DNA of 64,000 bases from Roseomonas gilardii subsp. gilardii (GTDB lineage: Bacteria > Pseudomonadota > Alphaproteobacteria > Acetobacterales > Acetobacteraceae): positions 1,724,501 through 1,788,500 of the forward strand of contig NZ_CP095554.1 in the NCBI RefSeq assembly GCF_023078375.1, written 5' to 3'. The position numbers and the translations under genes are program-made. Position 1 is the first letter of the stretch. Every line of letters starts with the position of its first letter. Positions 32,913 through 49,124 of this stretch are shown here, one piece after another. The notes under the pieces are model-generated. The model searched no databases. It had not been told where the DNA came from and saw nothing but the letters and a program-made list of their open reading frames with translations.

Positions 32913-34846
32913 TCACATCGCCAGGACCGGGTCCGCGGCATGGCTGACGATCCGCAGCGGCACGGATGGGAGGGTGAGCCCCCCGGCCCGCTGGGCATCC
33001 CAGCCGGCCCCGGTGGCCAGGGCCGCGATCCGGTCCCAGCCGGGCGGTGCAAACGCCGCCGCCCCCCGTTCGGCCCCTCTTTCGGCCCGGACGGCGGTGG
33101 CCAGCAGGTGCCGGCCGGGCGGGAGGCGGCCGCCCAGCACGGGCACGGCGGCCTGGGGGAACATCAGGCTGGTATTGGCCATGACATCCATCGCGCCGCT
33201 CCGCCGCTGGCCGCGGGGGTCGAGGATCGCGCTCCCCACCGCGTTCCCGGCCCGCAGCAGGATGCCGCCATCCGACAGGAGGTCCAGCACGGAACCGCCC
33301 GGCCGCTTGCGGGACCGGACGCGGCAGGGGACGGCATGGCCCGATTCCAGGGTCACGACGGGATGGTCGGACCGGAGGTCGTGCAGGCGGATCTCCCACC
33401 CCTCGCTGAAGAACTGGAGCGTGGTGACCTCCACGCCCGCCAGCGGCGACCAGCCGGTCTCGATCCAAGCCCGGCCGAGGCGGCGGGTGGGGATGTCGCG
33501 GCGGATGTGCCAGTCCCGCTCATCCGTGCTGACGGCGAGGATGTTGTCGCCGCAGGCGCCGTTATGGATCCAGCGCCCCGCTTCCAGGCAGGGGCCGAGA
33601 TGCGTGGAATAGGCGAATTTCGCGTATTTCTCCGTGCCGCCGCGCATGTTGTCGTGGCTGGGCCCGGCGGGCAGGGCGGTGACGTCGCCGCCCTGCCGCT
33701 GCACCAGCATGGAGGCGCCGGGGATGAGGGTCACGCCATCCCGGTCCGGGTGCGGTGCCTCCTCGGCCCGCCAGAAGGGATGCGTGTCCGGCAGGGCGAG
33801 CGGCAGGAAGGCCTTGAAAGCCCAGTAGGGCGAGCCCTGGGAGTTGTAGTTCTCGCTCATCAGCAGGTTCGGCCAGCGGTAGCCGACGCGCATCCGCCCG
33901 GCCTCGTCCAGCATCGGCTGTTGCAGCCACCAGCGGATCTGCCGCGCCCAGAGCCCGCGGATCACGCCCCAGGGCAGCGCCTCCACCCCGGCATAGGCCA
34001 GGGCGCCCCAGAAGGCGGCGGTGGCGAAGCGGTAGGTCAGCGAGCGGCCGATCGCCAGCGTGGCGCCATCATCGCCGAACCAGTGCCGGAAGCCCTGGGC
34101 GAAAGCGGCGCCGCGGTCGCGGTAACGGGCGGCGCGCTCCGGGTCGTGCCCGCCGGCCAGGGCGGCATAGGCGAGGCCGTAGAATTGCAGCGCGAAGCCG
34201 TTGTAGTGGTCGATATGGCCGCCGGCTCCGTCGCCGTACCAGCCGTCGCGCAGGTAGAATTCCTCGATCCGCGCCAGGTGGCGGTCGCGGGAGGCCTCGT
34301 CGATCGGCAGGCCGACGCGCTGCATGCCCAGCCCGGCCATGACCGGAAAGAAGTGCCAGTTGTTGTCGGCCATGGCGACGCGCTGGATGCCGCCGAGCCA
34401 GGTGGCGAGGTTGCGCCTCGCGGTGTCCGGCAGAGGCTCCCAGAGCTGTTCCGGCACCAGGGCCAGGGCGAAGCCCAGCGCCGCCATCTCCACCGAGCGC
34501 TGGTCGTGATCGGTGACGGCCTCCCAGTACTCCGGATGGGCGGGGTCGCTGCCGCTCTCCAGCCCTTCGCGGAACAGGACCCAGCCGTCGAAATCGCCAC
34601 CCCCGCCGCGAGGGGGGCGAGGCCCCAGAGCGGGCGGGCATAGCCCTCGAACCATTCGGCCTTGCGGTCGAAATGCGCGCTGTCCAGCCCCAGCCGCACC
34701 TGCGCGCGGCCAGGGCTGAAGCAGGGGCGCAGCGGCGCGTTCAGGTCGAGCAGCAGGCGGGCGGCATCGGCGCGGCTGGCCAGCGGGTTGCCGCGGATGG
34801 CCGCATGCGGGTCCTCGTGCATCCCAGGGGGCATTCCAGGGGGCAT
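32913..34846 (-). pseudogene. DUF2264 domain protein, frameshifted
   Basis: The main frame reads from about 34600 down to 32913 and carries DFDGWVLFREGLESGSDPAHPEYW, MADNNWHFFPVMAGLGMQ and YRWPNLLMSENYNSQGSPYWAFKAFLPL, typical of DUF2264, a helical-barrel family near polysaccharide-lyase genes. The N-terminus lies in another frame starting at 34846 (MPPGMPPGMHEDPHAAIRGNPL ... PLWGLAPLAAG). Adding one base to the five-C run at 34600-34604 (plus strand) joins them into a full protein of about 645 residues. Its ATG overlaps the stop of the binding-protein gene (TGATG), so the two are coupled. It may cleave or modify an imported or surface glycan; that is inference. Confidence 0.78.
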
Positions 34847-36135
34847 CACAGGATGGCGTTCGTGTCGTTGACCAGCTTCGCGGCGGCCTGTTTCGCATCC
34901 AGCCGGCCGAAGGCGAATTCGTCGGCGGCGTTGCGCAGGAACTGGCCGAACTGCTGCGCGTTCACCGGCATGGCGGGCGGGTAGGGGCCCACCTTGTCCG
35001 CCAGGAAATTGACGTATTCCACCGTGCGGCGCTCCATCTCGTTCAGCGTCGGCAGCACCAGGTCGCGCGACGCTCTGGCCATGGGCACGCCGCGCTCGAC
35101 GCCCAGGATCTTCACCGCCTCCGGATCGTTGAGGAAGAAGTTCACGAACTCCGCCGCGAGCTGCGTGTTGCGGCCCCGGCCATAGAGGCACCAGATCAGC
35201 GCAGGCCGGTAGAAATGCCCCGGCTTTGCGCCCGGGCCGCCATGCGGGAAGGTGGTCATGCCCAGTTTGAAGGGCACGACCTCCTGCGTCGCGACGAGCT
35301 GATTGGAGAACATCAGCGCCATGCCGGCATTCTTGGTGACCAGCGGCAGGGACTGTATGGAGTTCACGTCCTGCGAGGCGATGTCGGGCGTGACACAGCC
35401 GCCCGCCTTGCGCTGTTTGTCCCAGAAGGCGAACCATTCCGCCGCCAGTTCCGGGGTGAGGCCGAGCTTCCCATCCGCCGTGAAGAGGTCGATCCCGTGC
35501 TGGCGCAGCCAGACGGTCAGCGCCTGCTGGTTGCGGCTGATATCCGCGGAGCCCCACCAGTTCTCCTGCTTCGCCGCCTTGGTCAGCTCCACCGAAAGGC
35601 GGACATAATCGTCCCAGCTCGTCTTCTCGTCCGGCGGCGTCAGGCCGGTGCGCGCGAAGACCTCGGAATCGTAGAGCATGGCGAAGGAGTTCAGGCCGAG
35701 GCCCATGCCATAGATCTTGCCGTCCACGCGGCAGAGATCGAGCATCGAGGGATCGATGCCCGACACGTCGATGGCCTTGCCCAGCATCGGCTCCAGCGGC
35801 AGGAGGGCGCCGCGCCGCGCATAATCGGACAGGCTGTTCGGTTCGAGCTGGAAGACATCCGGCCCGTTGCGGCCGGCGATCTGCGTGTTGATCTTCTGGA
35901 AGTAGTCGGTGGAGTTGCCGTACTGGCCGTTGATCTTGAGGCCGGGATGGCGCTTTTCGAAGAGCTCGATCACCGCGAAGGTGCGGCGGGCACGGTCGCT
36001 GGCACCGAACCATTGCACCGCCATCTTCGTTTCAGCCGCCCTGGCGGACCGGCCGCCGGTGAGCGGGGTGCCCAGCAGGGCTAGGCTGCCGCCCAGGGCC
36101 AGGCGACCCAGGTCGCGCCGCTTGAGATCCGCCAT
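34846..36135 (-). CDS. Sugar ABC transporter (family 1) solute-binding protein
   Basis: The 429-residue periplasmic receptor has a Tat-like leader (LKRRDLGRLALGGSLALLGTP) and family 1 features: MAVQWFGASDRARRTFAVIELFEKRHPGLKI, GRNGPDVFQLEPNSLSDYARRGALLPLEP, and the C-terminal KILGVERGVPMARASRD. It is a paralogue of the receptor at 46798, sharing the VERGVP region and the lobe layout. No permease is adjacent, so it may use the importer at 42.6-45.5 kb. The start at 36135 follows ggagg. An operator-like site lies 122 bases upstream. Confidence 0.92.
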   Translation of the reverse strand: MADLKRRDLGRLALGGSLALLGTPLTGGRSARAAETKMAVQWFGASDRARRTFAVIELFEKRHPGLKINGQYGNSTDYFQKINTQIAGRNGPDVFQLEPNSLSDYARRGALLPLEPMLGKAIDVSGIDPSMLDLCRVDGKIYGMGLGLNSFAMLYDSEVFARTGLTPPDEKTSWDDYVRLSVELTKAAKQENWWGSADISRNQQALTVWLRQHGIDLFTADGKLGLTPELAAEWFAFWDKQRKAGGCVTPDIASQDVNSIQSLPLVTKNAGMALMFSNQLVATQEVVPFKLGMTTFPHGGPGAKPGHFYRPALIWCLYGRGRNTQLAAEFVNFFLNDPEAVKILGVERGVPMARASRDLVLPTLNEMERRTVEYVNFLADKVGPYPPAMPVNAQQFGQFLRNAADEFAFGRLDAKQAAAKLVNDTNAIL

Positions 36136-36256: not shown

Positions 36257-36276
36257 TGGTAACCGGAGGGTTATTC
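36257..36276. promoter_or_regulatory. Operator candidate D (7-6-7 geometry)
   Basis: TGGTAAC-CGGAGG-GTTATTC matches the perfect site at 41747 in six of seven left-arm and four of seven right-arm bases, with the same 6-base spacer. It is upstream of the binding-protein gene (minus). Confidence 0.4.
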
Positions 36277-36355
36277 CTGTGCCATGAACTGTCAAGCAAC
36301 AACGGATGAAGGCTTGCGGATAGCTGACGGATACGGAAACCTTCATTGCCGGGCA

Positions 36356-36375
36356 ATGTAAACATTTGGTTACTT
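36356..36375. promoter_or_regulatory. Operator candidate C (7-6-7 geometry)
   Basis: ATGTAAA-CATTTG-GTTACTT matches the perfect site at 41747 in five of seven left-arm and six of seven right-arm bases, with the same spacer length. It lies 35 bases before the hydroxyacid dehydrogenase start. Confidence 0.5.
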
Positions 36376-36410
36376 TTGCTGCGATGCGGAAATGACGCTG
36401 GGGAGGAATC

Positions 36411-37421
36411 ATGAGCGGACCCGCCGCCCTGCTGGCCTATGATCCGGGCCGCAATCCCGAAACCGTCTCCATGGCGCAGCATGCCGCGCTGCGGGAGATG
36501 CTGGATGTCCTGCGGCCCGATCCCCTGCAAGGCTTCGACGATCCGGCGCTGGCGCCACTCCTGCCGAGGGTCGAGGTGCTGGTCACCGGCTGGGGCGCGC
36601 CGCGGCTGGACCGGGCAGCGCTGGAGGCCATGCCGCGCCTGCGGCTGGTGGCGCATCTCGCCGGCACGGTGAAAGGGCATCTCGCGCCCGAGGTCTGGGA
36701 ACGCGGCATCCGCGTGGTCAATGCCGCCGATGCCAATGCGCTGCCGGTGGCGGAATACACACTGGCAGCGATCCTCTTCGCCAACAAGCAGGTCTTCCGT
36801 CTCAACCGGCTGTACCGGGAGCGGCGCGACGCGCCGAAGCCCTGGAGCAACCTCGCGCCCGGCCTGGGCAATTACGGCCGGTCCGTCGGCATCGTCGGCG
36901 CCTCGCGGATCGGGCGCCGGGTGATCGAACTGCTGCGGCCCTTCGACCTGCAAGTACTGCTGCACGATCCCTTCGTGAGCGGGGAGGAGGCCGCGCGGCT
37001 CGGCGTCACCCTGCTGCCGCTGGAGGAGCTGCTTTCCCGGGCCGATCTCGTCAGCCTGCACGCACCGCTGCTGCCCGCCACGCGCGGCATGATCGGCCGG
37101 CGGCAACTGGCGCTGATGCGGGACGGCGCGGCGCTGGTGAACACGGCGCGGGGCGGGCTGGTGGACCAGGATGCGCTGGTGGAGGAGCTGCGAAGCGGGC
37201 GGATCAGCGCGGTGATCGACGTGACGGAACCCGACCTGCTCCCACCGGAGCATCCGCTCTACGACCTGCCCAACGTCTTCCTGACGCCGCATATCGCCGG
37301 GGCGGAAGGGCCGGAGACGCAGCGCATGACGGCGCTGGTCATCGAGGAGATCCGGCGCTTCCTGTCCGGCGAGCCCCTGCGCCACGAAGTCCGGGCGCAG
37401 GACCTGCCCTCCCTGGCCTGA
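36411..37421 (+). CDS. D-isomer-specific 2-hydroxyacid dehydrogenase
   Basis: The 336-residue NAD-dependent enzyme has the Rossmann motif VGIVGASRIGRRV near residue 162 and the catalytic set: Arg in VNTARGGLVD, Glu in DVTEPDLLPPEHPL and His in TPHIAGAEG. This family reduces 2-oxo acids or oxidises 3-phosphoglycerate-like substrates. The start follows ggggagg. In this catabolic island it probably handles a hydroxyacid product of sugar breakdown. Specificity cannot be read. Convergent with the Bug receptor, with only 18 bases between stops and no clear hairpin. Confidence 0.9.
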   Translation: MSGPAALLAYDPGRNPETVSMAQHAALREMLDVLRPDPLQGFDDPALAPLLPRVEVLVTGWGAPRLDRAALEAMPRLRLVAHLAGTVKGHLAPEVWERGIRVVNAADANALPVAEYTLAAILFANKQVFRLNRLYRERRDAPKPWSNLAPGLGNYGRSVGIVGASRIGRRVIELLRPFDLQVLLHDPFVSGEEAARLGVTLLPLEELLSRADLVSLHAPLLPATRGMIGRRQLALMRDGAALVNTARGGLVDQDALVEELRSGRISAVIDVTEPDLLPPEHPLYDLPNVFLTPHIAGAEGPETQRMTALVIEEIRRFLSGEPLRHEVRAQDLPSLA

Positions 37422-37439
37422 GCGGCAGGCGAGGGGCCG

Positions 37440-38437
37440 TCAGTTGACGGTGATCTTCGCCTCCTGCACCACGCGGCCCCATTTGTCGCTTTCCCGCCGG
37501 ATGATGGCGGCGAGTTCCTCGGGCGTGGAGGAGACCGCGTCCGCCCCGGCGGCGGCGAGGCGCTCCTGCGCCCCGGGCTCGGCCAGGATCTCGCGGATCG
37601 CCTGATTGTAGCGGGCGATGGCGGCGGGCGGCGTCCCGGCGGGTGCGAGGACCGCCCCCAGGAGGTCGCCTCCGCCGCCGGAAGCCCGACCTCTGCCATG
37701 GTGGGCACGTCCGGCAACAGGGCGGAACGCTTCGGGCCGGTCGTCGCCAGGGCGCGCACCGTTCCAGCCTGGACCTGGCCGATCGCCGAGGGAAGCTGGT
37801 CCAGCATGAACTGCACCGTCCCGGCCACCGTGTCGTTCAGGGCCGGGGCGCTGCCGCGATAGGGCACATGCATCGGCTGGATGCCGGCGGCGAGCCGGAA
37901 GAGTTCCGCCACCATATGGGTGGAACTGCCGGACCCCGCCGAGCCATAGCTGATGGCGCTGCCCTTCTCCCGAACCAGCGCCACGAAGTCCTGCGCCGTC
38001 CGCGCCGGGACCTTGGGATTGACGATCAGCACATGGTCCGTGCCGAAGGCCATGGAGACCGGGGCGAAGCCCTTCACCGGATCGAAGCCGAGATTGCTGT
38101 ACAGGTGCTGGTTGATACTCAGCGTCCCCATGGTCGCCATCACCAGCGTATGGCCATCGGCAGGGGAATGCGCGGCATTTTCCATGCCGAGATTGCCGCC
38201 GGAGCCGGTGCGGTTCTCCACCACCACCGGCTGGCCGAGGCGCTGCTGCAGACGCTCACCCAGCACGCGCGCCACCACATCGGTGGCGCCGCCGGCGGGG
38301 AAGGGAACCACGAAACGCACCGGATGCGTGGGCGCCCAGGCAGCGGCGTTGCTGCCCTGGGCAAGGGCCAGGGACGGAAGGGCCAGGGATGGAAAGGCCA
38401 GTCCGGCGGCCAGGAGGCCGCGTCTCGCGATGAACAT
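37440..38437 (-). pseudogene. Tripartite tricarboxylate transporter (Bug) receptor, frameshifted
   Basis: The gene begins at 38437 with a signal peptide (MFIARRGLLAAGLAFPSLALPSLALAQ) and the Bug motifs VRFVVPFPAGGATDVVARVLGE, VVVENRTGSGGNLGMENAAHSPADGHT and SYGSAGSGSSTHMVAELF. After EVGLPAAEATSWG the frame is lost. The neighbouring frame supplies the normal end (AVLAPAGTPPAAIARYNQAI ... DKWGRVVQEAKITVN, stop at 37440). Adding one base to the five-C run at 37655-37659 (plus strand) restores about 332 residues. It follows the sugar isomerase gene on the same strand. Ligand unknown. Confidence 0.82.
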
Positions 38438-38566
38438 TTCCGTTGTTTCTCCCGAACATGTTTTTTCTTGCTTGGATGGGCGCGGGCCCTGCGGTGGTCC
38501 GCACCGTGCTTCGCCGGAAAACCGGCCGCGCCCTCCGCGCCTTGCCGGCGTGAAGGGCAAAGGATG

Positions 38567-39397
38567 TCAGCAGGCGCTCTGGTGGCGCTCCTTCAGCAAA
38601 GGCAGCACCTCGTCCGGATCGCGTGCCCACCAGCGGCGGGACAGGATCTCCACCTCCGCCCCGCCGGGCCAGCCGGCCTCCTCCGCCATGGCGCGAAGGG
38701 CGGGGATGTCGATCACCCCATCGCCCGGCAGCCCGCGGTCGAAGACCGTGTCCGTGGTCGGCACCAGCCAGTCGCAGGTGTGGAAGGCGGCGATCCTTCC
38801 CTTCGCGCGCCGCATCTGCCGGGCGAGATCCGGATCCCACCAGACATGATAGACATCCAGCGCCACGCCGCTGCCGTGCCCCAGCTCCTCGCAGAGATCC
38901 AGCGCCTGCCCCAGCGTGGCCAGCACCGAGCGGTCGGCGCAGGTCATCGGGTGCAGCGGCTCCAGCGCGATGGTCACGCCGGCATCGCGGGCCTCGCCCA
39001 TGATGGCGTGCAGGCCCTCCCGCACCATCTCCCGCGCACCCGGCAGGTCCCGCGAGCCGGGCGGCAGCCCGCCGCAGACCATCACGAGGCAGGCGGCGCC
39101 GATGGCATGGGCCTCGGCGATGGCGCGGCGGTTGTCCTCGATGGCGGCGGCGCGGCCCACCGCGTCGGGGGCCGTGAACATGCCGCCGCGGCACAGGCCG
39201 GTGACGCGCAGCCCGGCATCGCGGATCTGCCGCGCCGCCTGCTCCACCCCCATGGCCTGCAGCACGTCGCGCCAGGGGGAAATGCCGGGAATGCCGTGCC
39301 GGGCGCAGCCCTCGATGCATTCCGCCAGCCCCCAGCGCTCCTTCACCGTGACGGTGTTGAGGGAGAGGGGACCGGGATCGCTCTTCGCCATGCTCAT
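38567..39397 (-). CDS. Sugar phosphate isomerase/epimerase (AP endonuclease-2 fold)
   Basis: The 276-residue TIM-barrel protein shows the metal-binding pattern of the family: Glu in ALEPLHPM, Asp and His in DVYHVWWDPDL, His in AAFHTCDW, and Glu in GGAEVEILSRRWW. Relatives isomerise keto sugars, inososes or 3-keto-glycosides. It starts inside the stop of the DUF993 gene (ATGA overlap), so the two are translationally coupled with the Gfo oxidoreductase upstream. This suggests a pathway in which a sugar is oxidised, isomerised and cleaved. Confidence 0.9.
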   Translation of the reverse strand: MSMAKSDPGPLSLNTVTVKERWGLAECIEGCARHGIPGISPWRDVLQAMGVEQAARQIRDAGLRVTGLCRGGMFTAPDAVGRAAAIEDNRRAIAEAHAIGAACLVMVCGGLPPGSRDLPGAREMVREGLHAIMGEARDAGVTIALEPLHPMTCADRSVLATLGQALDLCEELGHGSGVALDVYHVWWDPDLARQMRRAKGRIAAFHTCDWLVPTTDTVFDRGLPGDGVIDIPALRAMAEEAGWPGGAEVEILSRRWWARDPDEVLPLLKERHQSAC

Positions 39398-40566
39398 GAC
39401 ACGCCATGCACCGCGAGGATCTGCCGCATGCGCGCGGCGGCGAGATCCGGATCGCGCAGCAGCCCGGCCTTGTCGGCGAGGCGGAAGAGCTCCACGAAAT
39501 GGCCGATGGAGCGGGCTGATTGCTGGCCGCCGACCATGGTGAAGTGGTCCTGGTGCCCGTTCAGCCAGGCCATGAATACCACGCCCGTCTTGTAGAAGCG
39601 GGTAGGCGCCTTGAAGATGTGCCGGCTGAGCGGCACGGTCGGCGCCAGGATGTCGTGGAAGCCCTGAAGGTCGTCCCGCGACAGGCAGGCCAGCGCGCCG
39701 CCCACCGCCGGGGCGATCGGGTCGAAGATGCCGAGCAGCGCGTCGGAATGGCCCTCGGAATCCCCGGCGATCGTCTCGGCGTAGTTGAAGTCGTCGCCCG
39801 TGTACATCCGCACGCGGCCCTTCCCATGGGGCGGCAGGCGGCGGCGCATGGCGATCTCCTTCTCCTTGTCGAGCAGGGAGATCTTCACCCCGTCCACCTT
39901 GCCGGCATGGTCGCCGATGACCTCCAGCGCCACCTCCATGGCTTTCCAGTGGTCGGGATGGCCCCAGTAGCCCTCCAGCGCCGGATCGAACATCTCGCCC
40001 AGCCAGTGGATGATCACCGGCTCCCGCACCTGGCGCAGGATGCGGTCATAGACGCGGACATAGTCGTCCGGCCCGCGCGCCGCCCGGGCCAGGGCGCGGG
40101 AGGCCATGAGGATGATGCGGCCGCCCATGCCCTCGACGGTGGAACACTGTTCCTCATAGGCGCGGATCACGTCGTCCACCGTGACATCCGGCCCCGGCGC
40201 CAGATGATCGGTGCCGGCGCCGGAGGCCATCACCGCGCCCGGCACGTCCTTCATCGCGTCCAGGGAGCGCCGGATCAGCTCCTGCGCCCCTGCCCAGTCG
40301 AGGCCCATGCCGCGCTGCGCCGTGTCCATCGCCTCGGCCACGCCCAGGCCCAGCGACCAGAGATGGCGGCGGAAGGCGATGGTACGGTCCCAGTCGATCT
40401 TCACATCGAGCCAGGGGTCCTGCTCCGCCAGCGGATCGGCCACCAGATGCGCGGCGGCCAGGGCGATGCGCGGGAAGGGCGGCTTCGCCACGGGGAATTC
40501 CCGCGGCGTGCCGGTGGTGTAGGGCGCCAGGTGCCCGTCGGCGCCCGGCAGGGTCAGGGTCGGCAC
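39394..40566 (-). CDS. DUF993 (dihydrodipicolinate synthase-like) family protein
   Basis: The 390-residue protein matches DUF993, described as dihydrodipicolinate-synthase-like. It contains GAVMASGAGTDHLAPG near residue 115, EPVIIHWLGEMFDPALEGYWG, GKVDGVKISLLDKEKEIAMRRRLP with a candidate Schiff-base Lys, and MYTGDDFNYAETIAGD. If the Lys is active, the protein may be an aldolase that cleaves a keto sugar acid; that is inference. A GTG at 40566 is chosen as start, 5 bases after the Gfo stop, because sequence before it is out of family. The gene is coupled to the isomerase gene by ATGA. Confidence 0.82.
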   Translation of the reverse strand: MPTLTLPGADGHLAPYTTGTPREFPVAKPPFPRIALAAAHLVADPLAEQDPWLDVKIDWDRTIAFRRHLWSLGLGVAEAMDTAQRGMGLDWAGAQELIRRSLDAMKDVPGAVMASGAGTDHLAPGPDVTVDDVIRAYEEQCSTVEGMGGRIILMASRALARAARGPDDYVRVYDRILRQVREPVIIHWLGEMFDPALEGYWGHPDHWKAMEVALEVIGDHAGKVDGVKISLLDKEKEIAMRRRLPPHGKGRVRMYTGDDFNYAETIAGDSEGHSDALLGIFDPIAPAVGGALACLSRDDLQGFHDILAPTVPLSRHIFKAPTRFYKTGVVFMAWLNGHQDHFTMVGGQQSARSIGHFVELFRLADKAGLLRDPDLAAARMRQILAVHGVS

Positions 40567-40571
40567 GGGGG

Positions 40572-41726
40572 TCAGACCTCCAGCTTCGGCAGGTCGATCC
40601 AGCGGCGCTCGGCCCAGGACTTCAGCCCGGCCTCGGCGAGCTGCACGCCCTTGGCGGCGGCCAGGAGGTTCCACCTGAACTCCGGCAGCTCCCCCGCGAC
40701 ATGGCGCAGGAACAGCTCCCATTGCGCCCGGAAGCCGTTGGGATAGGCCTGCGTGTCGGGGATCTCCTCCCAGCCCTCGAAGAAGTCGATGGGCTGCGGC
40801 GTGTCGGGGCTCCAGACGGGCTTGGGCGTGTTCACCCGGCTCTGCGTCCGGCACGTCATCAGCCCGGCCACGGCGGAGCCATGCGTGCCGTCCACATGGA
40901 AGGTCACGAGATCGTCCCGCCGCACCCGCGTGACCCAGGAGGAGTTGATCTGCGCGATCACCCCGCCCTCCAGCTCGAAGGTGGCATAGGCGGCGTCGTC
41001 CGCATCGGCCTCGTAGGTCTCGCCCTTCTCGTCGATGCGGCGCGGGATATGCGTGGCGCCGAGGCAGGAGACCGCCCTGGTCTCGCCGAACAGGTTGTCC
41101 AGCACGTAGCGCCAGTGGCAGAGCATATCGAGGATGATGCCGCCGCCCTCGTCCTTCTTGTAGTTCCAGGAGGGGCGCTGGGTGGGCTGCAGGTCGCCCT
41201 CGAAGACCCAGTAGCCGAACTCGCCGCGCACCGAGAGGATCTTGCCGAAGAAGCCGCTGTCGATGGCCATCTTCAGCTTCACCAGCCCGGGCAGGAAGAG
41301 CTTGTCCTGCACCGCGCCGTTCTTCACCCCGGCCTTGCGGGCGAGGCGGGCCACGTCCAGCGCGTCCTCCAGGTTATCGGCGGTCGGCTTCTCGGTGTAG
41401 ATATGCTTGCCGGCGGCGATGGCCTTGCGGATCAGCGCGGCGCGCATCTGCGTCGTGCCGGCGTCGAAGAAGATCTCATCGTCCTTGTTGGCCAGGGCCT
41501 CGTCGAGATCGGTGCCTACGCGTTCCACCCCATGGGCCCGGGCCAGGGCCTCCAGCTTCTCGCGGTTGCGGCCGACCAGGATCGGGTCCGGCATCAGCCG
41601 GTCGCCGTTCTTCAGCGGCACCCCGCCATCCCTCCGGATGGCCGCGATCGAGCGGATCAGGTGCTGGTTCATGCCCATGCGCCCTGTCACGCCATGCATG
41701 ATCAGGCCAATGCGACGCTCTGCCAT
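40572..41726 (-). CDS. Gfo/Idh/MocA family oxidoreductase
   Basis: The 384-residue NAD(P)-dependent dehydrogenase has an N-terminal Rossmann domain and the family motif IYTEKPTADN near residue 108, whose Lys is catalytic. The C-terminal sheet domain includes WNYKKDEGGGIILDMLCHWRYVLD, with the catalytic-site Asp/His pair. The first beta strand is unusual (LIMHGVTGRMGMNQHL) and resembles the inosose/3-keto-sugar branch. It is the first gene of the minus-strand operon and has the best operator of the island 20 bases upstream. Confidence 0.92.
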   Translation of the reverse strand: MAERRIGLIMHGVTGRMGMNQHLIRSIAAIRRDGGVPLKNGDRLMPDPILVGRNREKLEALARAHGVERVGTDLDEALANKDDEIFFDAGTTQMRAALIRKAIAAGKHIYTEKPTADNLEDALDVARLARKAGVKNGAVQDKLFLPGLVKLKMAIDSGFFGKILSVRGEFGYWVFEGDLQPTQRPSWNYKKDEGGGIILDMLCHWRYVLDNLFGETRAVSCLGATHIPRRIDEKGETYEADADDAAYATFELEGGVIAQINSSWVTRVRRDDLVTFHVDGTHGSAVAGLMTCRTQSRVNTPKPVWSPDTPQPIDFFEGWEEIPDTQAYPNGFRAQWELFLRHVAGELPEFRWNLLAAAKGVQLAEAGLKSWAERRWIDLPKLEV

Positions 41727-41744
41727 GACGATTCCATCCCGTGT

Positions 41745-41768
41745 TTAGGTAACTACGTGGTTACCTAA
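41745..41768. promoter_or_regulatory. Perfect palindromic operator A for the TetR regulator
   Basis: TTAGGTAAC (41745-41753) and GTTACCTAA (41760-41768) are perfect 9-base inverted repeats separated by TACGTG. The site lies between the TetR stop and the Gfo gene start, where repressor binding would block the minus-strand operon. Confidence 0.8.
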
Positions 41769-41788
41769 GAACGGGAGGGGCTGGCCGG

Positions 41789-42427
41789 TCAAGCACGAAG
41801 ATAGCCCAGGATCACATCCACGCAGTGATCCTCGCGGAGACCCAGAGCCACCTCGGTCGACAGGTCGGTCTTGAATATGGCGGACAGGGTGTGGAGGTTG
41901 GCCACGTAGAAATGCCCGACCGCGACGATGGTCACATAGGTCTGCAACGGATCGGCGTCGCGCCGGAAGACGCCGGCCTCGGCGCCGCGCAACAGAACGT
42001 CGCGCACGGATTCGAGCAGTGGCGAGTAGAGGGCGCGCACCTGCTCGCTACGGCCGAGGTAACTGGCCCGGTGCATGTTCTCCTGGTTCAGCAGGGTGAC
42101 GAATTCCGGGTGCCGCGCCGTGTAGCGCAGGTTGAAGCGCACCAGCCGCGCCATGGCCTCCACTGGCGGCAGGTTGCCGACATCGAGTGCCCGCTCCTCC
42201 TCCCGCTTCGCGCTGTACACATGCTCCAGGACCTCGATCCAGAGCTCTTCCTTGCTGCCGAAATGCACATAGAGCATGCGCTTGTTCACGCCGGCCCGGG
42301 CTGCGATCTCGTCCACCCGGGCCCCGGCCAGGCCATTGGCGGTGAATTCGGCAACCGCGGCGTCCAGGATCTTCCGGCGGGTGGTCTCGGCGCGCTTGCT
42401 GCGCTGCGGGATGAGGATGTCCGACAT
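41789..42427 (-). CDS. TetR-family regulator of the sugar catabolic island
   Basis: The 212-residue protein has a TetR helix-turn-helix (RKILDAAVAEFTANGLAGARVDEIAARAGVNKRMLYVHFGSKEELW, residues 18-63) and a helical ligand-binding domain with a tetR_C_36-like end. It lies between two divergent catabolic operons. A perfect palindrome in front of the minus-strand operon and three weaker copies near 36.3, 36.4 and 42.5 kb are the likely binding sites, so it is probably a repressor released by a pathway sugar or acid. Confidence 0.88.
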   Translation of the reverse strand: MSDILIPQRSKRAETTRRKILDAAVAEFTANGLAGARVDEIAARAGVNKRMLYVHFGSKEELWIEVLEHVYSAKREEERALDVGNLPPVEAMARLVRFNLRYTARHPEFVTLLNQENMHRASYLGRSEQVRALYSPLLESVRDVLLRGAEAGVFRRDADPLQTYVTIVAVGHFYVANLHTLSAIFKTDLSTEVALGLREDHCVDVILGYLRA

Positions 42428-42509
42428 GATTCCACAAAATTGCCGTGGGAGCTTCGCAAGGCCAGAAGAAAGATTGCTCGCATGCGATCACGAACGATCA
42501 CATCCGTGC

Positions 42510-42558
42510 TTGACACGAAGGGAGGCGCCTCCCTAGCGTGGGAACCAACCGGTTACCT
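42510..42558 (+). promoter_or_regulatory. Promoter of the ABC operon with palindrome and operator B
   Basis: TTGACA at 42510-42515 is a consensus -35 box. It is followed by a perfect 16-base palindrome, AGGGAGGCGCCTCCCT (42519-42534), and then TGGGAAC-CAACCG-GTTACCT (42539-42558), which matches operator A at five of seven left-arm and all seven right-arm bases. The -10 box is weak (TAGCGT near 42534). Repressor bound at B would cover the start region. Confidence 0.55.
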
Positions 42559-42614: not shown

Positions 42615-42665
42615 ATGACGAAACCCGGAAACGGGGCGGGGGATCATGCAGATCGCCGCCGCTGA
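42615..42665 (+). other. 16-codon leader reading frame or frame-shifted true start of the permease
   Basis: An ATG at 42615 has an excellent ribosome site (GGGGAGG, 7 bases upstream) and encodes MTKPGNGAGDHADRRR before a stop at 42665, overlapping the permease start in another frame. Removing one G from the five-G run at 42638-42642 would fuse it in frame to the permease. Either it is a coupling leader peptide or the run is miscounted. Confidence 0.4.
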
Positions 42666-43581
42666 GACGGGCTGGACCGCCGCCCGGAAGCGTAAGGCCA
42701 GCCGGAAACGCTGGGCAAGCCTGCCCGGCTATCTTTTCCTGCTGCCCTGGCTGATCGGCTTTTTCGGCCTGACGCTGGGGCCGGCCCTGGCTTCCCTGGC
42801 CCTGTCCTTCACCCATTTCGACCTGATGACCGACCCGCGCTGGGCGGGGCTGGCCAATTACCGGCGCATCCTGTTCTCGGACGTGAAGTTCTGGGAATCG
42901 CTCCGCGTCACCTTCACCTATGTGGTGCTGACCGTACCGCTGAAGCTCGCCTTCGCCCTGGGCGTGGCGATGGTGCTCAACAAGGGCATCCGCGGGCTGT
43001 CCATTTACCGAGCCATCTTCTACCTGCCCTCCCTGCTGGGGGCGAGCGTGGCCATCGCGGTGCTGTGGAGGGAGATCTTCTCCGGCACCGGCCTGCTGAA
43101 CCAGCTCCTCGCCCTGGTTGGCATCCAGGGGCCAAGCTGGATCGCCAACCCGGACACCGCGCTCTACACGCTGGTGGTGCTGGGCATCTGGCAGTTCGGT
43201 AGCCCGATGATCATCTTCCTGGCCGGGCTGCGGCAGATCCCGCAGGATCTGTATGAGGCCGCCAGCCTCGACGGCGCCTCGCCGCGCCGGCAGTTCTTCC
43301 GTATCACCCTGCCGCTGCTGACGCCGATCATCTTCTTCAATTCCATCGTGCAGGTGATCGACGCCTTCAAGGCCTTCACCCCGGCCTTCATCATCAGCGA
43401 GGGTACGGGTGGGCCGGTGAACTCGACCCTGTTCTATACCCTCTATCTGTTCCAGGAGGCCTTCAGCTTCTTCCGCATGGGCTATGCCTCTGCGCTCGCC
43501 TGGGTGCTGGTGCTGATCATCGCGGGCTTCACCGCGGTCTCCTTCCTGTCCGCGCGTTTCTGGGTGCATTACGATGAGTGA
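42646..43581 (+). CDS. Sugar ABC transporter permease 1 (MalF/UgpA type)
   Basis: The 311-residue inner-membrane protein has six helices and the EAA loop YEAASLDGASPRRQFFRITLPLLTP near residue 205, which docks the ATPase. The cytoplasmic N-terminus is basic. It overlaps permease 2 by 8 bases, and the full set permease-permease-ATPase-receptor makes this a complete importer of the carbohydrate CUT1 type. The start is uncertain because an upstream ATG in another frame has a better ribosome site. Confidence 0.93.
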   Translation: MQIAAAETGWTAARKRKASRKRWASLPGYLFLLPWLIGFFGLTLGPALASLALSFTHFDLMTDPRWAGLANYRRILFSDVKFWESLRVTFTYVVLTVPLKLAFALGVAMVLNKGIRGLSIYRAIFYLPSLLGASVAIAVLWREIFSGTGLLNQLLALVGIQGPSWIANPDTALYTLVVLGIWQFGSPMIIFLAGLRQIPQDLYEAASLDGASPRRQFFRITLPLLTPIIFFNSIVQVIDAFKAFTPAFIISEGTGGPVNSTLFYTLYLFQEAFSFFRMGYASALAWVLVLIIAGFTAVSFLSARFWVHYDE

Positions 43582-44436
43582 GGCCCTCCGCCATGGCGGC
43601 CCCCGTGCGTCGGGCGCCGGCCGGTCCGTCCTGAAGCATGCGGTGCTGATCGCCGTCGCCTTCTGCATGCTCTACCCGCTGCTTTGGATGCTCGCGAGCT
43701 CCTTCCGCAGCAGCCAGGACATCTTCTCCACCATCTCCATCATCCCGCAGAGCCTGAGCCTGGACGCCTATTTCCGGGGCTGGAACAGCCTTCAGGTCAG
43801 CTTCGGGCGGTTCTTCTGGAATTCGGCGGTGATCGCGGTGCTCTCCGTGATCGGCAACGTCGTGTCCTGCTCACTCGCGGCCTATGCCTTCGCCAGGCTG
43901 CGCTTCCGGGGCAAGAACCTCTGGTTCGCGCTGATGCTGGGCACGCTGATGATGCCCTATCACGTCACGCTGATCCCGCAATACATCCTGTTCCTGAACC
44001 TGGACTGGGTGAACACCATCCTGCCGCTGGTGGTGCCGAAATTCCTGGCCACGGATGCCTTCTTCATCTTCCTGATGGTCCAGTTCTTCCGGAACATCCC
44101 GCGCGAGCTGGACGAGGCCGCCATGATGGACGGGTGCAGCCCCTGGCGGATCTACTGGAAGATCATGCTGCCGCTCTCGCTGCCGGTGATGGCGACGGCC
44201 GCGATCTTCTCCTTCATCTGGACCTGGGACGACTTCTTCGGGCCGCTGATCTACCTGAACGACATGGACACCTACACGGCCCAGATCGGCCTGCGGTCCT
44301 TCGTGGATTCGGGCGGGGAATCCGACTGGCCCGCGCTCTTCGCCATGTCGGTCCTCGGCCTGGTTCCTGTCTTCCTGTTCTTCCTCTTCTTCCAGCGCCT
44401 GCTGATCGAAGGGATCGCCACCACGGGGATGAAACG

Positions 44437-44440
<4 letters not shown>
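43574..44440 (+). CDS. Sugar ABC transporter permease 2 (MalG/UgpE type)
   Basis: The 288-residue inner-membrane protein has six helices and the EAA loop DEAAMMDGCSPWRIYWKIMLPLSLP near residue 195. The motif ending in a C-terminal GMKR is typical of MalG-like permeases. Overlaps on both sides (8 bases with permease 1, ATGA with the ATPase) show tight translational coupling. Confidence 0.93.
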
Positions 44441-45532
<1,092 letters not shown>

Positions 45533-45543
<11 letters not shown>

Positions 45544-46765
45544 TCTCGCGCAGCATCGGATTGCGCTGGTCGGTACGGGCCATCGGGGCACCGGCATGTG
45601 GGGCAGGGAGCTGCTGTCCCGCCTCGGCCCCCAGGTGGAACTGGTCGGGCTCTGTGACATCAACGAGATGCGCGCGCATCGCTCCCAGCGGGCGATCGGC
45701 ACCAACGCGCCGGTCTTCACCGACTTCGGGGAGATGCTGGCCACGCTTCGCCCCGCCACGGTGATGGTCTGCACGCGCGACGACACGCATGACGACCTGA
45801 TCGTGCAGGCGCTGGAGGCAGGCTCCGACGTCATCACCGAGAAGCCCATGGCCACCACTGCGGCCAAGTGCCGCCGCATCCTGGAGGCGGAGGCGCGGAC
45901 CGGGCGCAAGGTGAATGTCGCCTTCAACTACCGCTACGCGCCCTTCGGCGCGAAGATCAAGGAACTGCTGATGGAGGGCGCGATCGGGGAGATCACCTCG
46001 ATCGACTTCCACTGGTATCTGGATACGCGGCACGGGGCCGACTACTTCCGTCGCTGGCATGCCTATCAGAAGAATTCCGGCAGCCTCTTCGTCCACAAGT
46101 CCACGCATCATTTCGACCTGCTGAACTGGTATGTGGCGGATGAGCCGAAGGAGATCTTCGCCCGTGGCAACCTGCGGCACTACGGGGCGAACGGCCCCTA
46201 TCGCGGCGAACGCTGCCGCGACTGCCTCCACGCGGCGGATTGCGACTTCCACCTCGACATCGCCGCCGATCCCTGGCTGGAAATGCTCTACGAGGACCCG
46301 TCGCGAGAGGATGGCTATGTCCGCGACGCCTGTGTCTTCCGCGAGGATATCGACATCTACGACACGATGAGCGCCTCGCTGGTCTATGGGAATGGCGTGC
46401 AGGTCTCCTACTCGCTGAATGCCTGCATGCCGGTCGAGGGGCATCACCTGGCCTTCAACGGGCGCAAGGGGCGGATGGAGATCCGGCACAAGGAAAACGA
46501 CCCCTTCGGCATCGGCGATCATGACGAGATCCTGCTGATGCGGAACTTCGGCCCTTCCGAGACCATCCGCATCAAGCGGGAGCATGGCGGCCATTTCGGC
46601 GGCGACAAGCGGCTCCAGGCCATGCTTTTCGATCCGGAGATGCCCGATCCGCTGCATCAGCGCGCCGGCGCACGGGCGGGGGCACTGTCCGTGCTCTGCG
46701 GCGTCGCCGCGGTGGAAAGCGTGAAGACCGGCCGGGCCGTGCCCGTGGCCGCGCAACTCGACTGA
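45533..46765 (+). CDS. Gfo/Idh/MocA family oxidoreductase with Cys-rich loop
   Basis: The 410-residue NAD-dependent dehydrogenase has GTGHRGTGMWG near residue 12, TEKPMATT near residue 104 and the substrate region FNYRYAPFGAKIKELLMEGAIGEI. A loop with RGERCRDCLHAADC near residue 228 holds a CxxC-x5-C pattern seen in a branch of this family. The C-terminal sheet domain follows. Start at 45533 follows GGGGAG; it overlaps the ATPase gene by 11 bases. Embedding in the importer operon means it probably oxidises the imported sugar or a derivative. Confidence 0.9.
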
Positions 46766-46797: not shown

Positions 46798-48081
46798 ATG
46801 GCGACGAGGCGGAACCTCATGCTGGGCGGGATGGCTTCGCTGGGCCTTCTCGCGGGTGGCGGCCTGGCCAGGGCCCAGGCGGCGCCGGTGCGGCTGCGCA
46901 TGACCTGGTGGGGCACCAAGGAGCGGGCGGACCGGACCACCAAGGTCAGCGCCCTCTACAGCCAGTTGCACCCGAACGTGTCGGTGGACAGCGAGAACAT
47001 GGGCTGGGGCGACTACTGGCCCAAGCTCGCCACCCAGGTCGTCGGCCGCAACGCGCCCGACCTGATCCAGATGGACTACCGCTACCTGTTCGAGTACGCG
47101 CGGCGCGGCGTGCTGCTGCCGCTCGATCCCTATGTGCCCAAGACGCTGCAGATCAGCGACTGGGACCCGAAATTCGTCGATGTCGGCAAGGCGGCCGGCA
47201 AGCTCTACGGCATCAATTTCGGGGCCAATTCGCCCTCGATGATGTTCAACCGCACGCTGCTGGAACAGTTCGGCCTGCCCGTGCCGACGCCCGACCTGAC
47301 CTGGGATGCCTATGCGAAGCTGGGCGAGGAAATCACCCGGAAGGCCAACAAGCCGGATTTCTACGGCCTCTCGGATGCGGGGCAGCAGGAGCCGATCCTG
47401 GAGATCTTCCTGCGCCAGAAGGGCAAGCTGCTCTATGCGCCGGACGACAAGCTGGGCTTCACCACCGCGGATATGGAGGAATGGTTCGGCTACTGGGACG
47501 GGCTGCGCAAGCGCAAGGCCTGCGTGCCGGCGGAGATCCAGGCCCTCTACCAGAACAGCCTGGAAACCAGCCCGCTGACCCTGGGCAAGGCGGCCATCGA
47601 CTTCGCCCATTCCAACCAGCTCGTGGCGATGCAGAAACTGAACCGCGACCGCGTCGCCATGACCATGGTGCCCACTGTCGCCCCCGACGCCCCGCCCGGC
47701 CAGTACCTGAAGCCGTCGCAGCTTCTGAGCGTCTATGGCCGCTCCCCCCGGGCCGAGGAGGCGGTGAAGCTGCTGAACTTCTACGTCACCGATGCGCGGG
47801 CGGGCGAGATCCTGGGTGTCGAGCGCGGCGTGCCCATCGCCGCGGCGCAGCGCGAGGTCATCAAGAAGGGCATGGATGATTCTAGCAAGGAGCTGGTCGC
47901 CTATATCGACATGGTCAGCACGCGGGTCGGTCCCGTGCCGCCGCCGCCGCCGAAGGGCGCAGGCGAGATCGCCAACATCCTGAAGCGGACCAACGAGGAG
48001 ATCGGCTTCGGCCGCCTCTCGCCGAAGGACGGCGCGAAGCGCTTCGTGAACGAGGCCCATGACGTGCTGGAGCGCGGCTGA
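46798..48081 (+). CDS. Sugar ABC transporter (family 1) solute-binding protein
   Basis: The 427-residue periplasmic receptor has a Tat-type leader (MATRRNLMLGGMASLGLLAGGGLARAQ) and the family features MTWWGTKERADRTTKVSALYSQLHPNVSV, GRNAPDLIQMDYRYLFEYARRGVLLPLDP and the C-terminal GEILGVERGVPIAAAQRE. It is a paralogue of the receptor at 34846. It starts 32 bases after the Gfo gene with an aaagggaggg ribosome site and is the cognate receptor for the importer encoded upstream. The aromatic residues in the first lobe suit an oligosaccharide or sugar ligand. Confidence 0.94.
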   Translation: MATRRNLMLGGMASLGLLAGGGLARAQAAPVRLRMTWWGTKERADRTTKVSALYSQLHPNVSVDSENMGWGDYWPKLATQVVGRNAPDLIQMDYRYLFEYARRGVLLPLDPYVPKTLQISDWDPKFVDVGKAAGKLYGINFGANSPSMMFNRTLLEQFGLPVPTPDLTWDAYAKLGEEITRKANKPDFYGLSDAGQQEPILEIFLRQKGKLLYAPDDKLGFTTADMEEWFGYWDGLRKRKACVPAEIQALYQNSLETSPLTLGKAAIDFAHSNQLVAMQKLNRDRVAMTMVPTVAPDAPPGQYLKPSQLLSVYGRSPRAEEAVKLLNFYVTDARAGEILGVERGVPIAAAQREVIKKGMDDSSKELVAYIDMVSTRVGPVPPPPPKGAGEIANILKRTNEEIGFGRLSPKDGAKRFVNEAHDVLERG

Positions 48082-48084
48082 GCC

Positions 48085-49113
48085 ATGGCGGCGTTCCGTT
48101 TCGCGGTCATCGGCATCAACCATGACCATATCCACGGCATGATGCGCGCGATGCGGGAAGCCGGCGGCGACTGCGCCGGCTTCCACGCGCCGGAGGACGA
48201 TCTCGCCGCCGCCTTCCAGGACCGCTACCCGGAAATCCCCCGCATCGCGGATCGCCGGCGCATCCTGGAGGCGCCGGAGATCGGCCTGATCCTCAGCGCC
48301 GCCATCCCATCCGACCGCGCCGGCATCGGCATCGAGGCGATGCGCCACGGCAAGGACGTGCTGGTGGACAAGCCCGGCATGCTCACGCTGGAGGATCTGG
48401 CGGCGGTCCGCGCGGTGCGGGCGGAAACGGGCCGCTTCTACAGCATCTTCTTCTCGGAGCATCTGGACCAGCGTTCGACGGTCCGGGCCGGGGAGCTGGT
48501 GCGCCAGGGCGCGATCGGGGAGGTCGTGAACACCGTCGGCCTCGGCCCGCACCGGCTCAGCGCCCCGAAGCGCCCGGACTGGTTCTTCGACCCGTCCCGC
48601 AACGGCGGCATCCTGGCCGACATCGCCAGCCATCAGGCGGAGCAGTTCCTCTTCTTCGCCGATGCGATAGGCCGGGGCGTGGAGGGCGAGGTCCTTTCCG
48701 CCACGGTCGGCAACCGCGCCCTGCCGGAATATCCCCGCTTCCGCGACTTCGGCGACATGCACCTGCGTGCCGGCCCCGTCACCGGCTATGTCCGGGTGGA
48801 CTGGTACACGCCCGATGCGATGCCGGTCTGGGGCGATGGAAGGCTGGTGATCCTCGGCACCGGGGGCACGATCGAGCTGCGGAAGTATTTCGACCCGGAG
48901 GGGCGCCCCGGCGGCGATCACCTCTTCCTCTCGAACCGGGACGGTGTCCGCTATATCGACTGCAACGACACGGTGCGGCCTTTCGGGCGCCTCTTTGCCA
49001 ACGACCTGCGCGACCGCACGGAAACCGCCATGCCGCAGGAACTCGGTTTCAAGGCCATGGAACTCGCCCTGACCGCCCAGGCCATGGCCGATCGCGCGTA
49101 TGGCGGGAAGTGA
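48085..49113 (+). CDS. Gfo/Idh/MocA family oxidoreductase, DKP variant
   Basis: The 342-residue protein begins FRFAVIGINHDHIHGMMRAM, a Rossmann strand with HDHIHG in place of the usual GxGxxG continuation. The catalytic motif is VDKPGMLT (Asp for Glu in EKP, Lys kept). The second domain includes FFDPSRNGGILADIASHQAEQFLFF with the usual Asp/His pair. It follows the receptor gene by 3 bases. The HDHIHG opening marks a subgroup distinct from the other three Gfo proteins of the island. Confidence 0.88.
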   Translation: MAAFRFAVIGINHDHIHGMMRAMREAGGDCAGFHAPEDDLAAAFQDRYPEIPRIADRRRILEAPEIGLILSAAIPSDRAGIGIEAMRHGKDVLVDKPGMLTLEDLAAVRAVRAETGRFYSIFFSEHLDQRSTVRAGELVRQGAIGEVVNTVGLGPHRLSAPKRPDWFFDPSRNGGILADIASHQAEQFLFFADAIGRGVEGEVLSATVGNRALPEYPRFRDFGDMHLRAGPVTGYVRVDWYTPDAMPVWGDGRLVILGTGGTIELRKYFDPEGRPGGDHLFLSNRDGVRYIDCNDTVRPFGRLFANDLRDRTETAMPQELGFKAMELALTAQAMADRAYGGK

Positions 49114-49124
49114 GGAGCCGGAGC

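Follow-up and report, generated by a model that had tools for sequence, protein, structure and literature searches.

A predicted palindromic operator and a putative local TetR-family repressor at a DUF993-containing catabolic locus of Roseomonas gilardii

Local repressors of the TetR family that act on palindromic operators at the promoters of a pathway are a general type of regulator. The levoglucosan operon of Bacillus smithii and the glycoside beta-elimination operon of Agrobacterium are presented, in the excerpts of the two papers available to us, as routes of oxidation, elimination, hydration and reduction (PMC7676230, PMC10628242). For Sinorhizobium, the PhaR expression table in the excerpted text of PMC12542648 gives SMc04132 as an uncharacterised protein and SMc04133 as a putative oxidoreductase. 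The window (the whole 64-kb stretch of R. gilardii DNA that was analysed) shares with the levoglucosan and beta-elimination operons, as far as these are covered by the excerpts, an operon that combines Gfo/Idh oxidoreductases with TIM barrels of xylose-isomerase-like or sugar-phosphate-isomerase type (PMC7676230, PMC10628242).

Gene products were assigned with Pfam. The central operon, on the minus strand, encodes a Gfo/Idh/MocA oxidoreductase (IDH1, 40572..41726; PDB relative 3oqb), a DUF993 protein (39394..40569; PF06187, 602 bits against a gathering threshold of 24; PDB relative 4dnh, uncharacterised), a xylose-isomerase-like TIM barrel (SPI, 38567..39397; PDB relatives 3ju2 (SMc04130), 3qc0 and 7vpf) and a TctC (Bug-type) solute receptor (37440..38437), whose gene is in two reading frames here and intact in relatives. 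Beyond it lie a D-2-hydroxyacid dehydrogenase gene on the plus strand (HADH, 36411..37421) and, on the minus strand, genes for an ABC solute-binding protein (SBP1, 34846..36135) and, downstream of it in an order shared with locus L054, for a protein with DUF2264 and DUF2264_C domains (32913..34898, an open frame with an approximate start). On the other side, the plus strand carries two ABC permease genes (permA, 42646..43581; permB, 43574..44440; both below the NCBIfam cut-offs), a MalK-type ATPase gene (44450..45543, start approximate, within the open frame 43684-45543) and genes for three more Gfo/Idh oxidoreductases (IDH2, 45527..46765; IDH3, 48085..49113; IDH4, 49110..50213) and a second solute-binding protein (SBP2, 46798..48081). 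Between these two arms, on the minus strand, lies the gene for a TetR-family regulator of 212 aa (41789..42427), with TetR_N at 56.3 bits (gathering threshold 24) and TetR_C_29 at 137.6 bits (26.2). All 19 NCBIfam TetR equivalog models listed, including ScbR, RutR, AcrR and BetI, stayed below their curated cut-offs (ScbR 59.6 against 150 bits, RutR 55.8 against 368), and a PADLOC run on the protein gave no match. Two known pathways were rejected by scanning IDH1 and IDH2: levoglucosan degradation (62.1 and 65.8 bits against the 650-bit cut-off of NF052479) and inositol catabolism (60.1 and 101.9 bits against the 355-bit cut-off of IolG, TIGR04380).

Four 20-mers had been proposed as operators, and all four match letter for letter. 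They are predicted operators without assigned strand: A (41747..41766, 30.2 bits) precedes the Gfo/Idh-DUF993-isomerase-tctC operon, right past the tetR stop codon; B (42539..42558, 21.9 bits) lies in the gap between tetR and the ABC permease gene; C (36356..36375, 22.8 bits) precedes HADH; and D (36257..36276) precedes SBP1. The sequence of A is AGGTAACTACGTGGTTACCT, with perfect 7-nt arms, and the arms of B, C and D, read at their coordinates, are imperfect. D is weak in the window, at 15.8 bits. A matrix was built from 24 counterparts of A in other genomes, with A-D all excluded; a counterpart was accepted at no more than 3 mismatches, and 24 of 29 loci yielded one. The predicted recognition unit is the 20-bp palindrome RRGTAACYRNNYRGTTACYY. 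The initial annotation described a 7-6-7 geometry, of which the arms stand as claimed; the spacer is constrained, since its columns 8, 9, 12 and 13 are purely Y, R, Y and R, so that only the two central bases are free. All four positions of this Y/R rule are met by A, B and C, and three by D.

Within the window the matrix scored at least 6 bits at A-D and nowhere else, and 2 Mb of simulated sequence held no match of at least 12 bits. A genome-wide scan for clustering had also been proposed. It was carried out by mismatch pattern instead of matrix (RGTAACYN4RGTTACY, up to 2 mismatches) and gave nine places in the 4.62-Mb genome, four of which are A-D; the probability of at least four of nine falling within 6.3 kb is ~4e-10, or 1.4e-7 without A, an outcome that favours the proposal. 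The raw motif count is not enriched, because a reversed-pattern control, which differs from the pattern in composition, gave more matches (27 against 9 in the 4.62-Mb genome, 93 against 24 in another pattern search and, for seven genomes taken together, 40 against 24); the argument is carried by clustering and conservation. Across 80 named tetR loci, the real matrix found 77 sites of at least 18 bits, compared with a mean of 0.08 and a maximum of 3 for 50 symmetric column permutations. Conservation of B, C and D is comparable in close relatives only: B is retained in L053, L054 and R. mucosa (L172), and between the window and R. mucosa 16/20 bases are identical in C and 17/20 in D, against 132/235 in the rest of the gap between SBP1 and HADH. 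By window scan, genome clustering, permutations and conservation in R. mucosa, chance matching is ruled out for A-D, which are judged from these sequence comparisons to be genuine sites. A narrower form of the chance explanation, in which A is genuine and B, C and D are fortuitous near-matches, draws on their imperfect arms, on the low score of D and on the restricted comparison. We regard it as highly improbable: B-D lie outside the training set and are nevertheless the sole other matches in the window, the R. mucosa copy of D scores higher (22 bits), genome G102 has relatives of SBP and HADH behind an operator at a different locus, and operators of Phyllobacterium precede an ABC operon too.

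The motif follows the regulator gene across genomes. A tetR ortholog (at least 55% identity, nearly full length) was found in 29 of 200 genomes of the family (Acetobacteraceae), our own included, and split into two pieces in one more; the exact motif is present in 27 of these 30 genomes and in 5 of the 170 others (Fisher 4e-25, with our own genome counted and kinship uncorrected). Genome G011 has tetR and lacks both DUF993 and the site, and its helix-turn-helix has diverged (19/29 identical). Three genomes without tetR (G001, G062, G069) carry the exact motif, with no pathway gene recognised by tblastn with the window proteins. Paralogous TetRs of the own genome were rejected as owners of the motif: in the 12-kb stretches around three of the five further TetR matches that were checked, no site reached 12 bits, and the match adjoining a 43% paralog scored only 11.7 bits. 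The palindromes might instead be bound by another regulator that travels with the operon, with this TetR controlling something else. G064 would fit such a case, as it has the operon behind an operator (L156, 23.1 bits) and no tetR relative above ~41%, and TetR binding is a prediction; another recurring regulator gene would also escape notice, because the locus maps used window proteins only. Against this reading, which we consider very unlikely, stand four genomes (G047, G063, G127, G177) with operons ~80% identical (IDH1 77-82%) and no tetR ortholog, where the operon loci examined contain no site of 6 bits or more; four loci (L240, L244, L245, L251) with a site at tetR and no IDH1 operon within up to 6 kb on each side, the operon of Phyllobacterium (L240) lying further along; and the co-occurrence of motif and tetR, which extends to ~50% tetR identity in other groups. 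The assignment of the motif to the window TetR is retained.

A and B were said to flank tetR, which is correct as to position; A, however, follows the tetR stop codon and would serve the IDH1 operon and not tetR. Among 64 named tetR loci showing the Gfo/Idh-DUF993-isomerase operon, 62 have a site before IDH1 (no more than 1300 bp from it, and none of these sites upstream of tetR), or 41 of 43 once loci identical to those of the ortholog survey are removed; the exceptions are L249, with the operon and no site, and L246, with sites beside tetR, 3.4 kb from IDH1. Of the 80 named loci, only 9 have a site of at least 18 bits up to 400 bp upstream of tetR. A general autoregulatory role of A was rejected, since the motif goes with the operon when tetR is separate: in G024 and G160 the operon is unlinked from tetR and has the site, with none beside tetR, and L194 and L215 are further cases in which the motif goes with the operon. 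The site is absent from 12 loci that do not show the operon in the stretch examined, 11 of Acetobacteraceae and one of a Rhodospirillales MAG (L230); for one of them, L180, only 1.3 kb downstream was visible.

TTGAC boxes lie directly upstream of A, B, D and a further site of the same genome, E, and these four sites overlap or abut -10 candidates. For IDH1, a -35-like TTGACC (41787..41792, minus strand) contains the tetR stop codon, and its -10 candidate touches A; for permA, the last base of a promoter-like TTGACA-N18-TAGCGT (42510..42539, plus strand) is the start of B; and for SBP1, a -35-like TTGACA (36290..36295, minus strand) places D over the -10 region. By reading, TTGAC stands ahead of the site in 26 of 27 site-bearing tetR loci of the family, in many of them partly on account of the tetR stop codon. 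The -10 hexamers match at just 2-3 of 6 positions, which is poor, and no good -35 box was seen at C or at another distant site, F. For A, B and D, a box placed directly ahead of the site fits repression. Some TetR-family proteins activate, and C lies before a poor promoter, so that an activating or dual role could be considered; with A, B, D and E at -10 candidates, the usual position of a repressor, we hold this to be unlikely. The preferred reading is that a catabolic regulon is, very probably, repressed locally by TetR 41789-42427 acting through the palindrome; the sequence itself shows the sites, how they are conserved, that they go with this TetR and these genes, and that they lie at promoter-like boxes. 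Binding would be by a dimer covering the 20 bp over or next to the -10 region, and bound TetR would keep RNA polymerase off the promoters. A would control the Gfo/Idh-DUF993-isomerase-tctC operon, B the ABC transporter and three more Gfo/Idh genes, C the hydroxyacid dehydrogenase gene and D the SBP1-DUF2264 pair. A compound of the pathway would bind the C-terminal domain and release TetR, so that import and degradation would be switched on together.

Comparative genomics gives strong support to the idea of one repressor acting through one type of operator on several transcription units; a regulon confined to the surroundings of one TetR gene holds for the local units and is too small, as it appears to extend to unlinked loci. 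In the own genome, TetR is predicted to act also at E (C1:837706), before an operon with a TIM-barrel gene and HisQMP-type ABC genes, and at the pair F (C1:2331438 with 2331374), at an MFS transporter gene and a divergent amidase gene. Of the five among the nine genome places that lie outside the locus, two close relatives retain one and a single close relative retains a pair, and the genes behind them include transporters. In relatives, further operators precede genes for TctC-type receptors or chemoreceptors. In family genomes outside the genus that carry tetR (or in the sister genome G120), each of the eight further exact operators has a TctC receptor, as does one weaker operator (six called by Pfam, three by tblastn). 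In Telmatospirillum siberiense, tetR is separated by an operator from the gene for a 56% relative of the site-F MFS protein, and two operators accompany sCache_2 chemoreceptors; a search of our own genome for sCache_2 found none. In Phyllobacterium, tetR, the SBP2-permease operon and the IDH1-DUF993 operon each have an operator in front, and this locus contains the only two exact motif matches of the genome. The terms 'new-looking' and 'island' of the initial annotation are loose, because DUF993 is present in 47 of 200 family genomes (once as a fragment) and 11 of 16 queried window genes are grouped together in Phyllobacterium.

From the protein families, uptake, oxidation, isomerisation and cleavage of a carbohydrate may be proposed. 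TctC receptors, sCache_2 chemoreceptors, the DUF2264 protein and, in neighbouring operons, a GH88-like (sub-threshold) and an enolase-superfamily protein hint at an acidic sugar derivative as substrate. A tentative and rather doubtful extension would be an unnamed pathway for such a derivative (a uronic or aldonic acid glycoside), shared by several lineages of Alphaproteobacteria and by two Burkholderiales MAGs. Oxidation would fall to the Gfo/Idh enzymes, elimination or isomerisation to the TIM barrel and Schiff-base aldol cleavage to DUF993, while one TetR would keep its operator grammar and lineages would swap uptake and sensing modules (ABC, MFS, TctC receptors, chemoreceptors). The DUF993 protein is of a kind annotated elsewhere as dihydrodipicolinate-synthase-like; its invariant K229 (VDGVKISLLD) aligns with VVAIKIAPFN of a DHDPS-family protein in a weak hhalign match (E 0.09, probability 0.6%). 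The sources searched gave no function for DUF993 or PF06187; for 4DNH they held only a lizard gut-resistome study, judged by its title, little of relevance was found in the literature searched for SMc04130, SMc04132, SMc04133, 7VPF, 3JU2 and 3OQB, and no DUF2264 appeared among the matches listed for DUF2264 or GH154. The predicted operator code offers a precise handle on the regulator of a pathway in which the key enzyme, DUF993, has no function in those sources, although the structure of a relative (4dnh) is solved. As the operator ties transporter, amidase and chemoreceptor genes at unlinked places to the pathway, it can be used to search for the substrate.

Compared with the described systems, SPI matches 3ju2, i.e. 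SMc04130 of the Sinorhizobium SMc04130-SMc04133 group, in which we take the products of SMc04132 and SMc04133 to be DUF993 and Gfo/Idh relatives. AtOGE (8bvk) is absent from the six PDB matches of SPI at E <= 0.001, and the word 'dihydrodipicolinate' occurs 0 times in the beta-elimination paper (PMC10628242). The operator was not described among the papers listed for TetR operators and Roseomonas TetR regulons, as far as titles and the beginnings of abstracts tell. RutR and AcrR are only weak HMM relatives of the window TetR. With local TetR repressors in general, it shares the TetR_N helix-turn-helix, a C-terminal domain of ligand type, a palindromic operator near the -10 region and a gene adjacent to the pathway; unlike them, it has further operators at unlinked TctC receptor and chemoreceptor genes in relatives. 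A local TetR operator that can be traced from one bacterial order to another, with changing transporters behind it, makes a useful case of regulon evolution.

The host genome (4.62 Mb, Roseomonas group) carries the TetR-family regulator gene tetR (window 41789-42427, minus strand) at the centre of the gene set; among the best 80 of 580 named loci, Roseomonas mucosa ATCC BAA-692 has its nearest relative (97% identity). Around it lie, on the minus strand, the genes for IDH1 (Gfo/Idh oxidoreductase), DUF993, SPI (xylose-isomerase-like TIM barrel) and a TctC-type receptor, and, on the plus strand, those for an ABC transporter (permA, permB, ATPase), followed by IDH2, the solute-binding protein SBP2, IDH3 and IDH4. 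Further left, the D-2-hydroxyacid dehydrogenase gene HADH (plus strand) is divergent from the solute-binding protein gene SBP1, which has a DUF2264 gene behind it. The tctC gene (37440-38437, minus strand) is split over two frames by a shift or a sequencing error; the corresponding loci L172 (R. mucosa) and L173 have one frame of ~320 aa. The four 20-mers read as operators in the initial annotation are all present, confirming the four-site observation: A (41747-41766) before IDH1, B (42539-42558) in the tetR/permA gap, C (36356-36375) before HADH and D (36257-36276) before SBP1.

A symmetric matrix was built from the best palindrome at each of 29 tetR loci in other genomes of the family, of which the 24 with at most three mismatches were kept; sites A-D were excluded, and two of the 24 stem from strains closely related to that of the window. 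Its consensus is the 20-bp palindrome RRGTAACYRNNYRGTTACYY. Within the proposed 7-6-7 geometry, four of the six spacer positions are constrained (Y, R, Y, R in 24/24 sites); read off the sequences, A, B and C match all four and D three. The matrix scored A at 30.2, C at 22.8, B at 21.9 and D at 15.8 bits, found no other site of at least 6 bits in the 64-kb window and none of at least 12 bits in 2 Mb of third-order Markov sequence. With at most two mismatches, the pattern occurs at nine places in the genome: A-D, site E, the site pair F, and C1:1300253 and C1:3214825, which we take for chance matches. This raw count is unremarkable, because a reversed-pattern control gave 27 places. The remarkable feature is the clustering, which the initial annotation had proposed to check by a genome-wide scan: four of the nine places fall within 6.3 kb (P ~4e-10; 1.4e-7 leaving out A).

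In the set of 200 family genomes, tetR orthologs were found in 30, comprising 29 with at least 55% identity (own genome counted) and G087, whose ortholog lies in two pieces (L171 4718-5327). The exact motif occurs in 32 genomes, namely 27 of the 30 with tetR versus 5 of the 170 without (Fisher 4e-25, genomes treated without kinship correction). Two of the three exceptions with tetR, G161 and G139, each carry a near-match in the corresponding position (25.1 and 20.8 bits), and the third, G011, is devoid of operon (IDH1-DUF993-SPI) and site and has an altered helix-turn-helix. Five genomes have the motif but lack tetR. In G190 it precedes an IDH1-SPI pair adjoining a 41% TetR relative, and in G120 (80% complete, congeneric with the tetR carrier G035) it precedes a TctC gene; a search with the window proteins found no relatives near the motif in G001, G062 and G069, bar a weak ATPase match 9 kb away in G001. 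Co-occurrence thus strongly supports the assignment of the putative site to this TetR.

The best 80 of 580 confirmed named tetR loci were scanned over up to 6 kb per side (L180: 1.3 kb downstream). A site of at least 18 bits lay within 1300 bp upstream of IDH1, not upstream of tetR, in 62 of the 64 loci showing the operon, the others being L249, without a site, and L246, with sites by tetR only; omitting 24 loci identical to those of the family-genome tetR search left 41 of 43. The 16 loci without an operon in view comprised 12 without a site (11 from named Acetobacteraceae genera or the family, plus the Rhodospirillales MAG L230) and four from other groups with one. In total, the 80 loci contained 77 sites, versus a mean of 0.08 and a maximum of 3 in 50 symmetric matrix permutations, and 1.8 Mb of shuffled loci yielded none of at least 12 bits. 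Since 9 of the 80 have a site of at least 18 bits within 400 bp upstream of tetR, autoregulation may occur in a minority of loci.

Natural controls were provided by genomes in which operon and regulator lie apart or tetR is lacking. In G024 and G160, tetR stands alone, and ~42 and ~122 kb of the same contig separate it from the operon; an operator was found at the operon (L102, L104) but not next to tetR (L065, L055). DUF993 genomes without a tetR ortholog numbered 18, and DUF993 loci were fetched for 17, all but the fragment G090. Six of these have an IDH1 of 67-87%: no site of at least 6 bits was found in the DUF993 loci of G047, G063, G127 and G177, G130 has a site (21.4 bits) adjoining a 46% TetR, and G064 has operon and operator (L156 10396-10415, 23.1 bits), yet no tetR relative above ~41%. 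In the remaining 11 genomes (12 loci), DUF993 is more distant (54-66%) and IDH1 is absent; sites of at least 14 bits occur in four of the 12 loci (L153, L161, L166, L168), adjoining TetRs of 43-48% in L161 and L168. In G109 (L159), a 46% TetR separates the permease operon from DUF993-SBP-IDH4-DUF2264, and all sites there are weak (9.7-13.9 bits).

Candidate targets also lie away from the main locus. At site E (C1:837706, 27.1 bits), which is conserved in G102 and G159, the downstream genes encode a TIM barrel and ABC components of the HisQMP type. The E-type operator of G102 is followed by genes for an SBP, the TIM barrel, a HADH (51% to the window HADH) and the same ABC components, so that both strains have an SBP and a HADH downstream of the motif, at different loci. 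Both members of site pair F (C1:2331438, 27.1 bits; 2331374, 16.7 bits) are conserved in G102; the pair is flanked by an amidase gene on one side and, on the other, by an MFS transporter gene with a second amidase after it. In family genomes outside the genus, all eight further exact sites (carriers or the sister genome G120) are at the 5' end of a TctC-receptor gene, as is one weaker site (L067); TctC was called by Pfam in L103, L105, L106, L107, L108 and L116 and by tblastn at 30-31% in L072, L109 and L067. In L103 and L107 the site overlaps the first codons of the called frame, whose real start probably lies further downstream. An extra dihydrodipicolinate-synthase-family gene is the first operon gene, between operator and IDH1, in L056 (10226-11314, Pfam), and similar frames were seen by eye in L062, L067, L072 and L104.

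In Phyllobacterium sophorae, from another order, tetR, SBP2-permA-permB-IDH3-IDH4-ATPase and IDH1-DUF993-enolase-superfamily-SPI-IDH2 form one cluster in which operators precede tetR (26.1 and 17.8 bits), the SBP2 operon (19.7) and IDH1 (29.4); both exact matches in that genome are at this cluster. In Telmatospirillum siberiense, operators are found upstream of IDH1-SPI and in the gap separating tetR from an MFS gene whose identity to the one at site F is 56%. Two Telmatospirillum genomes have a further site where an sCache_2 chemoreceptor gene begins (L267 near 6551 and L268 7833-7852; 23.2 and 33.4 bits), suggesting chemotaxis to the pathway substrate; no sCache_2 protein was found in our own genome. 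In the Telmatospirillum locus L266 (6541-7911), a Glyco_hydro_88-like protein follows IDH1-SPI (21.8 bits, below the 26.6 cut-off). Seven non-family carrier genomes contain 24 places with at most one mismatch, versus 40 for the reversed control; counted by coordinates, tetR is no more than 12 kb away from 11 of the 24.

Among the 27 family loci that have both tetR and a site, 26 show, read by eye, a TTGAC in the 60 bases preceding the site, a conservation partly due to coding, because TGA is the tetR stop in many loci. In our own genome, the TTGAC boxes just upstream of the sites are TTGACC at A (41792-41787, including the tetR stop codon), TTGACA at B (42510-42515, with TAGCGT at 42534-42539), TTGACA at D (36295-36290) and TTGACC at E; no good -35 box was found at C and F, and the -10 candidates are poor. 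We infer binding, repression and an inducer; because operators A, B, D and E either cover part of the -10 candidate or abut it, TetR on the operator likely blocks transcription at target promoters sterically. The perfect 14-bp palindrome GGGAGGCGCCTCCC (42520-42533) fills most of the -35/-10-like spacer of the permease promoter, where a second regulator may possibly act through it.

The reading of one TetR with a shared operator family over several transcription units is supported by matrix, clustering and tetR/site co-occurrence and would extend beyond the four sites; the comparative case for this regulon is unusually clean. TctC receptors are of the carboxylate type, and, together with the uronide-type neighbours, they suggest an acidic sugar derivative as substrate. 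None of the ten proteins scanned reached an NCBIfam cut-off. A KISLL-type lysine is invariant in DUF993 (K229, 15/15 sequences) and falls on the DHDPS lysine in a very weak alignment. Solved relatives of IDH1 (3oqb), SPI (3ju2, 3qc0, 7vpf) and DUF993 (4dnh) come without a stated pathway. PMC10628242 and PMC7676230 place Gfo/Idh proteins with such TIM barrels in oxidation-elimination-hydration-reduction operons.
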